Below are positions 17,006 to 23,178 of a stretch of DNA of 44,500 bases, piece after piece. How positions within the stretch are numbered: the first letter of the stretch is position 1; each line of letters opens with the position of its first letter. The DNA is from Akkermansia muciniphila (GTDB lineage Bacteria > Verrucomicrobiota > Verrucomicrobiia > Opitutales > Opitutaceae), in contig CAMDHP010000006.1 in NCBI GenBank assembly GCA_945898185.1, forward strand, positions 1 through 44,500, read 5' to 3'. A program made the position numbers and the translations under genes. The notes under the pieces were generated by a model that made no database searches, was not told the origin of the DNA, and was given only the letters and a program-made list of their open reading frames with translations.

Positions 17006-17195
17006 TACCCACCTCCCCTGGCAGTGAGAGCTTGGCCAAGGTTAGCCCGATTTACGGCTGTTTTTGACCGCGGGTTGCGCGGCTGAATGTGCACGCCAGA
17101 ACCGTTACCGTGTGGCCCAACCGTTCAGATTTTTAACGCGAGGACGCAAAGAATTTCCTTTTGTCGCCGTGGCCTGCGTCGTGCATGTTAATCCC

Positions 17196-20252: not shown

Positions 20253-21857
20253 TCAGTCGTGGCCGGGCTCGTCTTCGAGAAAGATCCATTTATCGACGTC
20301 TATTTTGTGGCGGTTGAGCGCCTCGGCATACTCGGGTTTTTTGACCAGACTGGCCGGGGAGTTCATCACCATCTGGATCTTCTCGTTCGGGATGTGGTGA
20401 CGCAGAAGAATGATCAAGGAATCGTAGTCACGGCTATCGTAGCCGACGCCGAGTTTACGGTAGGCGTCGTCGGAGGAAAGGGCCTGGTCGGTCTCAGTCA
20501 TCATGCGATCGGTGGCATGGGCACCGAAACCGGCGCCGCGTCCGTCGTTGTGGAGGAGAAGCATGGCACCCACGCCGTAGGTGACGATGTGTTTGACCGA
20601 CTGCTTCATTTTGTCGCGGTTCTCCACCGCGCGCAGGGGGAAACGGTTAAAGAGCGACTCGCTGTGCAGGCGCACCACGGGCAGGTCGCGGATGCGGGGC
20701 GTGCCGTAGGTGAGCACCACAAAATCCTGCGAGGTCACGATGTCGTAGTAAACGTGAACCTTGAACCAGTAGGGCGTGGTGAGCAGGTCGAGGATGGGGT
20801 CGTCGGGGTTGTCGCGTTTAAAGTAGCTAAGATTATCCACCGAGATTTTGACGAAGTAACGATTCTCTCGGATGGAATGGTAACTGAGCACGAGCGGATG
20901 CGGGCCGGCGGTGTAGCGGCTCATGCCGTCGTGTTGGAAGAGCTCGTTGAACTGGGCGCCGGTGAGGAGGATGTCGTTGTCCACCGGCTTCATGGGGAGG
21001 AAGTAGCTGGCGGAGTAAATAAAGCGGCGGGCCTCGGGGAGCGCGTAGGGCTTGAAGGGGACGACCGGCTCGGGCGGGAGGGCGCGTTTGACGAGCGTGG
21101 CGGAGGGGCGTTTGAGGATGTGGCCGCCGGCGGCTTTAGAGGTGAGGTAGGCGAGGTTAAAGGGCGAAGGCTCGAACTCGAGGGCCTCGGTGCCGGCGAC
21201 CGTGAGACCTTGGGCCTTCATGGCATCAACCTTATCGGGGTTATTGGTTAGGACGGTAAAGGAAGCGGTGATCCCGAGCAGGTAGCAGATGTGGGAGATG
21301 TTGTCGTAGTTACGGTGGTCCTTTTTGAGGCCCATCGCTGAATAGGCGGCGAAAGTGGAGAGCTGGTCGAGGGATGCTTGCACAAGCATGCGGTCGCGGG
21401 CCTTGCCGACGTAGCCGACACCGCGGCCCTCTTGCATGAGATAGAAGAGGATGCCCTTGCCCTTCTCCGCGATGACCTTGAAAGCGCCCTCGAGCTGCTG
21501 CACGCAATCGCAGTCGCAGCCGCGCAGGGTTTCGCTGGTGACGCAGGAGGAGTGGAGGCGGGTGTGGAGGGTGGTGGCATTGACGATGTCGCCGAAGGCC
21601 AGGGCGATGATGTAGTGCTTATCGATAATGTCTTGAAAAACATGGGCGCGGAAGTGACCGAACCGAGTATCGAGCTTGCAGGTGGCAATGTAGAGCGTCG
21701 TGCCGTAGAGCGGACGATCATCCAACGCTCGGGGGGCTACGAGGGCGCCAGTGGCATGCTGAAGCTCGGCGACGACCGCGTCGAAAGCGCCGCCAAGACT
21801 AGCTTCGGCACTCGGTTTAGCCGGAACGGGGGCGCGAGGGATGGCGGTTGAATGCAT
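20253..21857 (-). CDS. ribA: GTP cyclohydrolase II-like protein with two tandem RibA domains, second domain lacking zinc ligands
   Basis: 534 residues. The first half (about 50-250) is a RibA domain: HSSCVTSETLRGCDCDC gives the zinc cysteines C105, C116 and C118 with the E. coli spacing, followed by MQEGRGVGYVGKARD (the EGR..G segment), DHRNYDN and the LTNNPDKV motif. RibA converts GTP to 2,5-diamino-6-ribosylamino-4-pyrimidinone 5'-phosphate, the first step of riboflavin synthesis. From about 390 a second RibA-like half appears: VRLHSESLFNRFPL, LLHNDGRGAGFGAHATDR and DSRDYDS, then MNSPASL. It has no zinc cysteine at all, so it is likely catalytically dead or structural. There is no RibB partner domain here. 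The exact role is uncertain. Confidence 0.85.
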   Translation of the reverse strand: MHSTAIPRAPVPAKPSAEASLGGAFDAVVAELQHATGALVAPRALDDRPLYGTTLYIATCKLDTRFGHFRAHVFQDIIDKHYIIALAFGDIVNATTLHTRLHSSCVTSETLRGCDCDCVQQLEGAFKVIAEKGKGILFYLMQEGRGVGYVGKARDRMLVQASLDQLSTFAAYSAMGLKKDHRNYDNISHICYLLGITASFTVLTNNPDKVDAMKAQGLTVAGTEALEFEPSPFNLAYLTSKAAGGHILKRPSATLVKRALPPEPVVPFKPYALPEARRFIYSASYFLPMKPVDNDILLTGAQFNELFQHDGMSRYTAGPHPLVLSYHSIRENRYFVKISVDNLSYFKRDNPDDPILDLLTTPYWFKVHVYYDIVTSQDFVVLTYGTPRIRDLPVVRLHSESLFNRFPLRAVENRDKMKQSVKHIVTYGVGAMLLLHNDGRGAGFGAHATDRMMTETDQALSSDDAYRKLGVGYDSRDYDSLIILLRHHIPNEKIQMVMNSPASLVKKPEYAEALNRHKIDVDKWIFLEDEPGHD

Positions 21858-21995
21858 TTAGTAGCGGAGAACGTAGCTGAAAAACGGGACGATAGGGAAG
21901 AATTGGAAAAAGAAAATCACCGTGATCACATAACGGAGGGCCATGAAGGTGAGAAATTCCCCAAAGGCGTGGGCGGGCTCAACGGCACTGCGCAC
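21858..21995 (-). CDS. Short hydrophobic ORF abutting the RibA-like gene (small membrane protein or gene remnant)
   Basis: 45 codons from a GTG at 21995; the frame is closed upstream by a TAA at 22013-22011. The residues VEPAHAFGEFLTF lead into one strongly hydrophobic helix (ALRYVITVIFFFQFFPIVPFF), ending SYVLRY. Its TAA is immediately followed by the ATG of the RibA-like gene. It may be a real small membrane protein translated ahead of that gene, or the C-terminal leftover of a longer membrane protein. No family recognised. Confidence 0.35.
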   Translation of the reverse strand: MRSAVEPAHAFGEFLTFMALRYVITVIFFFQFFPIVPFFSYVLRY

Positions 21996-22185
21996 GACGT
22001 CTGCCGCGCGTTAAAGCCCCCGATGTAGTTGAAAGCCTGTGACACTGCAGTCATCGATACGGAGCACATCGGAATGCTGATCAACCCGGTGGTTTATCAA
22101 ACCATGGCCGACGCGAGACCATGGCCGGCAAGAACCAGGCTTGCTCCGCTGCCTTTGGCGCGGCGGTCTAAAGCTAAAACCTTCA

Positions 22186-23178
22186 ATGCGCGTAAAACTC
22201 GACTGGTTTCTAATCGGCATGATCGCCGCGGTGGGTCTCGCCTGGGCCTATCCGCAGCTCGGCGCAAAGAACGGACCCCTGCATCCCGACCTCATCAACA
22301 AGGCGGGCGTCGCGCTGATATTCTTTCTGAACGGCGCCGCCCTCGCCTTTGCCTCATTCAAGTCAGGCGCGCTGCGCTGGCCGCTCCACCTCGTCGTCCA
22401 AGGCGCAACTTACCTGTTGTTCCCGCTCCTCGGCTTGGGACTGCTGTTCCTCGCCGGAGGCCTGATCTCGCCGGCGCTTACCTTGGGTTTTTTCTTCCTG
22501 TGCGCGCTGCCATCAACCGTCTCTTCATCGATCGCGATGACCTCGGCAGCGAGAGGGAACGTGCCAGCGGCACTCTTTAACGCCACACTATCTAGCATCC
22601 TGGGTGTGTTTCTCACGCCGATCTGGATTGGCTGGATGGTAAACAGCCCGGGCGCGCATACGATACCGCTCGGCAAGGTAATTCTCGACCTCGTCACCTG
22701 GCTGATCTTTCCGCTCGTGCTAGGGCAACTCAGCCGGCCCTTCATCGCCGGCTGGGTAAAACGCCACAAGGCGAAGGTCTTCCTCGTGGATCGCGGCACC
22801 ATCCTGATCATCATCTACACCTCTTTCTGTGACTCGATCATGCGCGGAGTCTGGTCGAACGAGGGCGTGATGACCGTGTTAGCGGCGCTGGCGGGCGGGC
22901 TGCTCCTGTTTGCCATCGTTTTCGCTGGGGTGAACGCGGTGTGCAGTGCGCTTAAGTTCTCCGACGAGGACCGCATCGCAGCCGTGTTTTGCGGCTCCAA
23001 GAAGACCATCGCTGCGGGCGTGCCGATGGCGCAGCTGATCTTTGGCAGCGATCCGCGCATCGGCCTGATCCTGCTCCCGCTGATGGTTTACCACCCGATG
23101 CAGCTCGTGATCTGCGGCGTGCTTGCCAGGCGCTGGGGAAGCGATGAGCATAACGGCACACAGCTCGAACGCAGGTGA
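22186..23178 (+). CDS. Bile-acid:sodium-symporter-like transporter (SBF-like, YfeH type, PF13593)
   Basis: 330 residues with about ten hydrophobic helices and the layout of the YfeH/SBF-like family (usual length 320-340). LDWFLIGMIAAVGLAWAYPQLG is the first helix, and the segments ALPSTVSSSIAMTSAARGN and CGSKKTIAAGVPMAQLIF are the two discontinuous-helix crossing regions that form the ion and substrate site in this fold. Family substrates are anionic organic compounds; the specific one cannot be told. The frame opens at 22141, but the ATG at 22186 sits just before the first helix. It is divergent from the RibA-like gene. Confidence 0.88.
   Translation: MRVKLDWFLIGMIAAVGLAWAYPQLGAKNGPLHPDLINKAGVALIFFLNGAALAFASFKSGALRWPLHLVVQGATYLLFPLLGLGLLFLAGGLISPALTLGFFFLCALPSTVSSSIAMTSAARGNVPAALFNATLSSILGVFLTPIWIGWMVNSPGAHTIPLGKVILDLVTWLIFPLVLGQLSRPFIAGWVKRHKAKVFLVDRGTILIIIYTSFCDSIMRGVWSNEGVMTVLAALAGGLLLFAIVFAGVNAVCSALKFSDEDRIAAVFCGSKKTIAAGVPMAQLIFGSDPRIGLILLPLMVYHPMQLVICGVLARRWGSDEHNGTQLERR

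Follow-up and report, generated by a model that had tools for sequence, protein, structure and literature searches.

In GTP cyclohydrolase II (GCHII), the RibA enzyme of riboflavin synthesis, a conserved tyrosine (Y105 in E. coli) has a catalytic role, and the related UTP cyclohydrolase acts in uracil catabolism (the URC pathway). The breakdown of purines is known to proceed mostly by oxidising the bicyclic ring, still unopened, to urate. GCHII-like domains have also been described that lack zinc, and in Shewanella such a zinc-less RibX domain regulates its RibB partner, as stated in a part of the text of PMC10012899. Here we describe a gene in a stretch of 44,500 nucleotides from Akkermansia muciniphila (assembly GCA_945898185.1, contig CAMDHP010000006.1; the whole stretch is referred to as the window), which encodes a two-domain protein of the GCHII family, P0001, at 20253..21857 on the minus strand (534 amino acids in an open frame). 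Drawing on genomes only, we lean towards the reading that its first half, H1, acts on a purine nucleotide by opening the imidazole ring and probably stops at the formylamino-pyrimidine, with the second half, H2, as a zinc-less partner. More tentatively, P0001 may be the entry enzyme of a new purine degradation pathway that is free of xanthine dehydrogenase, in which H2 would have come to serve as a module for phosphate chemistry or for control by nucleotide binding.

Two halves of one GCHII-family protein

The initial annotation had proposed a two-domain RibA-like protein at this position without stating its strand, and the minus-strand frame bears this out with two matches to PF00925 (176.4 bits for the whole protein in two stretches, cut-off 23.3), which place P0001 in the GCHII fold family; in a six-frame search of the genome the two stretches score 136 and 45.9 bits. 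Searched alone, as had been proposed, the second half still matches PF00925 (E 1.6e-11, 44.5 bits, same cut-off), and the AlphaFold model of the whole protein, suggested at the same time, has a mean pLDDT of 88.0 and a pTM of 0.86. H1, the zinc GCHII domain, spans residues 55-252 (21102..21695, minus strand like all parts of the gene), as supported by PF00925 at residues 58-222 and superposition on 2bz0, and the zinc-less GCHII-like domain H2 spans residues 362-527 (20277..20774), as supported by the PF00925 match of the second half and profile comparison. Between them, residues 253-361 (20775..21101) form, by the secondary structure of the model, a linker and an extra alpha/beta segment ahead of the second GCHII-like fold, and are less conserved than the two domains in the 58-row alignment introduced below. 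The motifs named initially were all located as claimed, with C105, C116, C118 and EGRGVGY in H1 and DGRGAGF and RDYDS in H2. PF00925 was the only family reported in P0001 at E values up to 1, and the N-terminal PF00926 domain typical of RibBX was thus not among the matches. P0001 stays below the cut-off of the NCBIfam equivalog model for RibA (TIGR00505; 138.7 bits, cut-off 205.85) and exceeds that of the broader subfamily model NF001591 (181.5 bits, cut-off 148), so that annotation by NF001591 could assign a riboflavin enzyme to genomes in error. Opposite the gene lies an antisense open frame of 330 amino acids (window 20259-21251, plus strand), probably a shadow of the high G+C coding sequence.

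A scan of genome contigs gave 99 loci, 80 of which were kept as encoding a relative of P0001 (best segments 54 to 93% identical). P0001 and 57 of these loci make up the 58-row alignment, 23 having been omitted (fragments, near copies and some others); a separate alignment of 81 rows was also used for the cysteine columns, and canonical RibA was represented by ten rows from the phylum, or nine distinct genes (L084 and L157 being one gene; L155 and L156 failed a motif filter and were left out).

In structure, H1 aligns with E. coli GCHII (2bz0; Z score 21.4, rmsd 1.6) over 173 residues (model residues 52-228), in a structure search that used the whole P0001 model and mostly probed residues 52-255. 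Its zinc ligands C105 (21543..21545), C116 (21510..21512) and C118 (21504..21506), the equivalents of E. coli C54, C65 and C67, are cysteine in 58/58 rows, as well as in 79/79 rows of the 81-row alignment with a letter there, and the three zinc cysteines of RibA are found in H1 only. Eighteen of the 20 E. coli GCHII positions compared are kept, each in 58/58 rows (R49, S52, C54, C65, D66, C67, Q70, L71, Q91, E92, G93, R94, D126, R128, T149, N150, N151 and K154). The two others have changed in every row: E53, which is E or Q in canonical RibA, is replaced by serine, and Y105, a tyrosine in 10/10 canonical rows, by arginine (R156, 21390..21392). The glycine of the published zinc motif is likewise a serine (S108) in 58/58 rows. 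Compared with the relative at locus L001, H1 has a dN of 0.0066, a dS of 0.53 and a dN/dS of about 0.013, and H2 a dN of 0.025, a dS of 0.32 and a dN/dS of about 0.08, pairwise values that mix the window's own branch with that of L001.

Profile-profile comparison relates H2 to H1 (E 6.7e-17) and to canonical RibA (E 3.6e-14), and its fold assignment is based on sequence profiles and the whole-protein model; judged from these, H2 is a true GCHII homologue without zinc-ligand cysteines, its relatives included. This agrees with the duplication with one degenerate half put forward initially (two PF00925 matches, of which H2 is without ligand cysteines). The contrary outcomes foreseen there were a second half unrelated to the GCHII fold, or ligand cysteines kept in homologous halves; what was found is GCHII homology, and second halves in the relatives that likewise lack these cysteines. 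The statement that the second half has no cysteine at all holds for this strain, whose protein has none beyond residue 191, but not for its relatives, since 28/58 rows carry one to three cysteines within residues 362-527, away from the ligand positions. At the ligand-equivalent columns of H2 (401, 411 and 413 of the 81-row alignment) no row has a cysteine. The position equivalent to C54 is S, T or A in 58/58 rows (Ser in 53/58) and that equivalent to C67 is Asn in 53/58, where the residues matched to the zinc ligands vary with the alignment across a one-residue gap; Q70 is replaced by Lys (53/58), K154 by Ser (56/58), and T149 is also replaced. Retained are R49 (56/58), S52 (56/58), E53 (57/58), G93 (58/58), R94 (56/58), D126 (54/58) and R128 (56/58), and the position of E92 holds Asp in 55/58. 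With both the retained positions and the replacements conserved across relatives, H2 has a signature of its own.

Zinc is required for ring opening and dispensable for the release of pyrophosphate, according to a part of the text of PMC10366380. H2 should be unable to carry out zinc-dependent ring opening, as judged from its residues, and is a zinc-less partner that probably still binds nucleotide. The regulatory or dimer-stabilising pseudo-domain considered in the initial annotation is plausible by analogy, with RibBX as a precedent. As a conserved pseudo-enzyme with its phosphate-site signature kept, H2 would be a clean case for studying the function of such domains.

In a tree of 67 rows, H1 (98/94), H2 (100/100) and the zinc-less RibBX domains of the family (100/100) each form one group, and the two halves are thus the separate clades that the initial annotation had suggested looking for. 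RibBX falls among the canonical RibA domains and H2 elsewhere, which argues that the cysteines were lost at least twice, on a tree with bootstrap values short of fully settled, a midpoint root and a long H2 stem (2.46). A zinc loss common to H2 and RibBX was considered and rejected, as this tree gives it no support. Conservation in Opitutaceae proved too strong a description: of the 61 genomes sampled from the window's family, all at least 90% complete, 20 are carriers (in 19 of these PF00925 matches both halves; in G025 it matches one half, and reading gives the full gene), and the gene also extends to four other families of the phylum. These families (f2, f5, f6 and f29) gave near full-length matches in a scan of 383 genomes of the phylum, in which G378 matches with the C-terminal part only, at a contig end; among the matches listed, the rest are confined to a single RibA-type domain (about positions 19-262 of 505), with the exception of a broken copy in G033. 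This copy (G033:C1:483104-484124) is a second one of the two-domain gene in that genome, matched in separate frames. With the gene in 20/61 family genomes and in four other families, the two-domain protein is an old and conserved variant of the GCHII family and not the outcome of a loss in one strain. Literature searches of titles and abstract openings, with subscription journals mostly outside their coverage, returned nothing describing this architecture or pathway; within that reach the pathway, if demonstrated, would be new.

Neighbours and co-occurring genes in carriers

Neighbours were counted with single query proteins at the 80 loci, with flanks of 6 kb at most and many contigs shorter, and gene calls made by a simple codon-bias script; a missing neighbour at a single locus therefore means little. 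The commonest identified neighbour is a SIS protein (42/80 loci, 38 of them within 400 bp of the GCHII gene), and a purine permease (PF00860), which we read as AzgA-like, is present at 25/80 (20 within 400 bp). A TonB receptor occurs at 20 loci, RidA at 19, an amidase at 18, an Amidohydro_2 protein at 17, a nucleoside permease (PF06516) and adenosine deaminase at 16 each, a phosphoribosyltransferase at 13, DUF3891 at nine, adenine deaminase at five and an SBF-like transporter at two. The purine-type genes (permease, nucleoside permease, adenosine deaminase, adenine deaminase and phosphoribosyltransferase) have at least one representative at 44/80 loci, the best models of the phosphoribosyltransferases being xanthine or hypoxanthine enzymes, with scores below the cut-offs of those models. 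For the SIS protein there was no Pfam match and no sequence relative among solved structures; its model has the double-SIS fold (50 listed matches, Z 20.3-25.2, rmsd 2.7-3.7, 271-310 residues aligned), and the matches include NagB-II, the GlmS isomerase domain and the deglycases FrlB and FraB. Its gene is present in 13/61 family genomes, all 13 carriers, and is adjacent to the GCHII gene in 12.

Eleven stretches from nine carriers were inspected for larger clusters. The largest, in G254 (L224), holds 12 genes together, encoding the two-domain GCHII, the SIS protein, a fumarylacetoacetate-hydrolase-like (FAH-like) protein, an amidase, an amidohydrolase, the N and C parts of a creatininase, an SBF-like transporter, RidA, DUF3891, an FmdA-like formamidase and a phosphoribosyltransferase; ten have Pfam names, and the creatininase N part has no Pfam match. 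Overlapping gene sets in G203, G386, G188, G033 and G074 bring the number to six genomes from four families. The set is split across contigs in G097 and G074, four of its genes were found in G388, and only the GCHII-SIS pair is in view in G105. DUF3891 (PF13030, function unknown) recurs in the cluster (L224 15411-16232, L226 5038-5862, L228 8545-9309), and purine breakdown is a lead for it.

Creatininase matches (PF02633) occur in 39/61 family genomes and are too widespread to serve as a simple marker; therefore, only genomes with both an N- and a C-half were counted. Both halves are present in 20/20 family carriers versus 5/41 non-carriers (G017, G018, G021, G051 and G060; Fisher 8.5e-12) and, among 24 further genomes picked by identifier, in 10/11 carriers and 0/13 non-carriers, which amounts to 30/31 carriers examined overall; in G044 each half sits at the end of a different contig. 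In a tree of the C-half, the 20 carrier-type copies, one per carrier and labelled beforehand, fall on one side (76/96), and the five non-carrier copies group with a general type that some carriers have as well. The physical creatininase links seen first (L073, G033) belong on this tree to the general type and were discarded as not carrier-specific. Among named models, MftE and creatininase match the C-half best, neither reaching its cut-off. The window's genome keeps a protein with both halves on contig C50 (L163 834-2390; 519 amino acids), the first half of which matches weakly and is probably degenerate, giving this gene set a second enzyme that is duplicated and has one half changed.

Strong xanthine dehydrogenase, defined as TIGR02965 with a score of 750 bits or more, reached in one piece or as a sum, shows the reverse distribution (0/20 family carriers versus 19/41 non-carriers; Fisher p 9e-5): 16/61 genomes score above the curated cut-off and three more at 756-777 bits, and the best match in a carrier has 127 bits. 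On a RibBX tree that covers 45 of the 61 genomes, the carrier label needs nine changes, and these co-occurrence links therefore do not reflect one inheritance event.

If H1 acts on purines as we favour, an imported purine would be converted to its nucleotide by the phosphoribosyltransferase, and H1 would open the imidazole ring and, lacking the tyrosine, stop at the formylamino-pyrimidine nucleotide. The creatininase pair might then take off formate as BrbF does, an enzyme annotated as creatinine amidohydrolase that deformylates the formylamino-pyrimidine nucleotide precursor of riboflavin, as given in a part of PMC9478397. The SIS enzyme would remove ribose phosphate from the pyrimidine, and amidohydrolase, amidase, RidA and formamidase would act further down. 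H2 would most likely pair with H1 as an intramolecular pseudo-dimer and bind nucleotide, either structurally or as a control site. Among the options of the initial annotation, a new specialised activity is the one best favoured by the comparisons, namely the Ser at E53 and the Arg at Y105 in 58/58 rows, the purine-type neighbours and the lack of strong xanthine dehydrogenase in family carriers.

Several points weigh against this pathway. The one basis for a stop at the formylamino product is SCO6655 of S. coelicolor, which has Met in place of the Tyr and reportedly makes that product, and the residue here is Arg. None of the purine-type genes sought was found at 36/80 loci within the short flanks described, and FAH-like, amidohydrolase, creatininase and FmdA-like genes occur at 4/80 loci each. 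The SIS gene is missing in 7/20 family carriers, the window's genome, in which none was found, among them; carrier G388 has no creatininase match, and support for separating carrier-specific from general creatininases on the tree is only moderate. In genomes outside the family, xanthine dehydrogenase never exceeds 52 bits in the 24 genomes, carriers and non-carriers alike, and is uninformative there, and all co-occurrence p values are uncorrected for kinship. Finally, the window's genome has lost much of the neighbouring cluster while the two-domain gene is intact.

Riboflavin supply and other alternative roles

P0001 could instead be the genome's replacement RibA, which together with the creatininase-family protein would provide the first riboflavin step in two stages, like archaeal GCHIII and ArfB; we consider this unlikely. 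The window's genome is 92% complete, and the sole other PF00925 protein found in it is a fusion of RibB with a RibA domain that lacks zinc cysteines (L081 859-1950, contig C58; profile matches to PF00926 and PF00925), so that P0001 is the only zinc GCHII found. RibH and RibD are present in the genome, the creatininase halves accompany the gene in 20/20 family carriers even where the SIS gene is absent, and the BrbF precedent concerns a riboflavin precursor (PMC9478397, in part). However, 37 of the 41 family non-carriers have solely the zinc-less RibB fusion as PF00925 protein and yet keep RibD and RibH; the family thus seems to have another route, and the riboflavin role is marked down because of it. 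Furthermore, the identified neighbours of the two-domain gene are not rib genes, and the distribution of xanthine dehydrogenase described above also speaks against this role.

Presumably, the family makes riboflavin without needing the two-domain gene. RibD_C is found in 61/61 family genomes and RibH in 59/61 (missing in G046 and G060), and of the remaining non-carriers G014 has a canonical RibBA, G035 the fusion together with a canonical RibA, and G037 and G060 no PF00925 match. In the 37 fusion-only genomes, whose fusion genes are among L086-L131 and L203-L213, no enzyme is evident for the first step of riboflavin synthesis. GCHIII was ruled out as the missing enzyme, since PF05165 matched 0/61 family genomes and did match its controls in three archaea. 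In G014, the one genome of 61 whose RibBA fusion has zinc cysteines, ribH, ribBA and ribD lie side by side (G014:C22:120222-122913) and could be a horizontally acquired operon.

A substrate other than a purine nucleotide, for example a pyrimidine or an oxidised or modified base, is improbable in our view, although the GCHII fold has changed its substrate before, as the likeness to UTP cyclohydrolase shows. The UTP cyclohydrolase structures 7ej3 and 7eev are the next-best solved matches to the P0001 model after two true GCHII structures (Z 17.7 and 17.6, rmsd 5.1 and 5.0, 230 and 231 residues aligned), the invariant Ser at E53 would fit a changed substrate, and CTP synthase, present at 7/80 loci and adjacent in six, misfits the purine pattern. 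The neighbours nevertheless point to purines through the PF00860 and PF06516 permeases, the adenosine and adenine deaminases and the xanthine- or hypoxanthine-type phosphoribosyltransferases, even if only the Pfam matches among them score above cut-off.

It is similarly doubtful that the two halves share the work and that H2 is itself catalytic, as a nucleotide pyrophosphohydrolase or nucleotidyl-transfer half that needs no zinc. The retained D126 and R128 would suit such a role, as would the signature of its own (Ser at C54, Asn at C67, Lys at Q70), and besides pyrophosphate release without zinc, a part of PMC10366380 describes a contact of Arg128 with the alpha-phosphate for pyrophosphate release and a proposed covalent intermediate. 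Against it, Q70, T149 and K154 are replaced in H2, and D126 and R128 are already kept in H1.

A probable cluster deletion in the window and comparison with known systems

Next to the two-domain gene the window holds what appear to be the ends of an eroded cluster. At 21882..21989 on the minus strand, what is left of the C-terminal end of a purine permease gene (in relatives, of the PF00860 family) was recognised by reading frame and a match of 36 amino acids, 56% identical to the permease beside the two-domain gene in L001 (E 0.002). On the plus strand, 21978..22121 encodes the C-terminal 48 residues of an FAH-like gene, matching residues 225-272 of the FAH gene in L227 (E 2.1e-7), followed by the surviving cluster member, an SBF-like transporter (22141..23178, plus strand; PF13593, E 2.3e-98) that is 88% identical to the one in the L227 cluster. 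Window positions 21978-23137 are collinear at the nucleotide level with L227 2325-3484, which comprises the SBF gene and the end of the FAH gene. In L227, the genes for RidA, FmdA, both creatininase parts and DUF3891 lie between the FAH gene and the two-domain gene, and the permease is located directly upstream of the latter, as it is in L073. This arrangement is most simply explained by a deletion in the window's lineage, about 7.4 kb long when measured on L227. That the two-domain gene is a leftover heading for loss after this deletion, as the abutting FAH and permease remnants and the missing SIS gene might suggest, is very unlikely given its intact frame, the low dN/dS of H1 and H2 and the two-half creatininase protein surviving on another contig. 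Elsewhere in the window, 40 bases at 17113-17152 are 92.5% identical to L001 3961-4000 without co-alignment of the surrounding genes, possibly a dispersed repeat.

Compared with E. coli RibA, H1 has the same fold, the three zinc cysteines, D126 and R128. The RibA motif is CX2GX7CXC, as given in a part of PMC10366380, and that of H1 is CX2SX7CXC. H1 further differs by Ser at E53, Arg at Y105 and a three-residue insertion, and P0001 as a whole by the fused zinc-less second half and the purine-type neighbours in relatives. RibBX (6mnz) resembles P0001 in that a zinc-less GCHII-like domain is fused to an active domain, the activity being predicted in the case of P0001; the partner is RibB in the former and a zinc GCHII half in the latter, and H2 and the RibBX domains of the family lie apart on the tree. 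BrbF and archaeal ArfB belong to the same broad family as the creatininase C-half (ArfB model NF033501 weak, 17.6 bits, cut-off 180), and are unlike the creatininase pair in that the latter is a two-part protein; its likeness to BrbF is one of broad family and not of direct comparison. UTP cyclohydrolase (7eev, 7ej3) shares with H1 the GCHII-type domain and the C-x-C motif and is a solved GCHII relative acting on another nucleotide. P0001 scores 18.8 bits (cut-off 403) with NF005536 (PRK07198, named 'GTP cyclohydrolase II'), which we take to be the UTP cyclohydrolase/Urc1 family, and falls outside it. In our alignment, both UTP cyclohydrolase and the E. coli enzyme have a Tyr four residues past the motif Lys, which H1 lacks. 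If the reading we favour is correct, purine rings would be opened at the nucleotide level by the type of chemistry used in riboflavin synthesis, in parallel to the breakdown of uracil through UTP cyclohydrolase.

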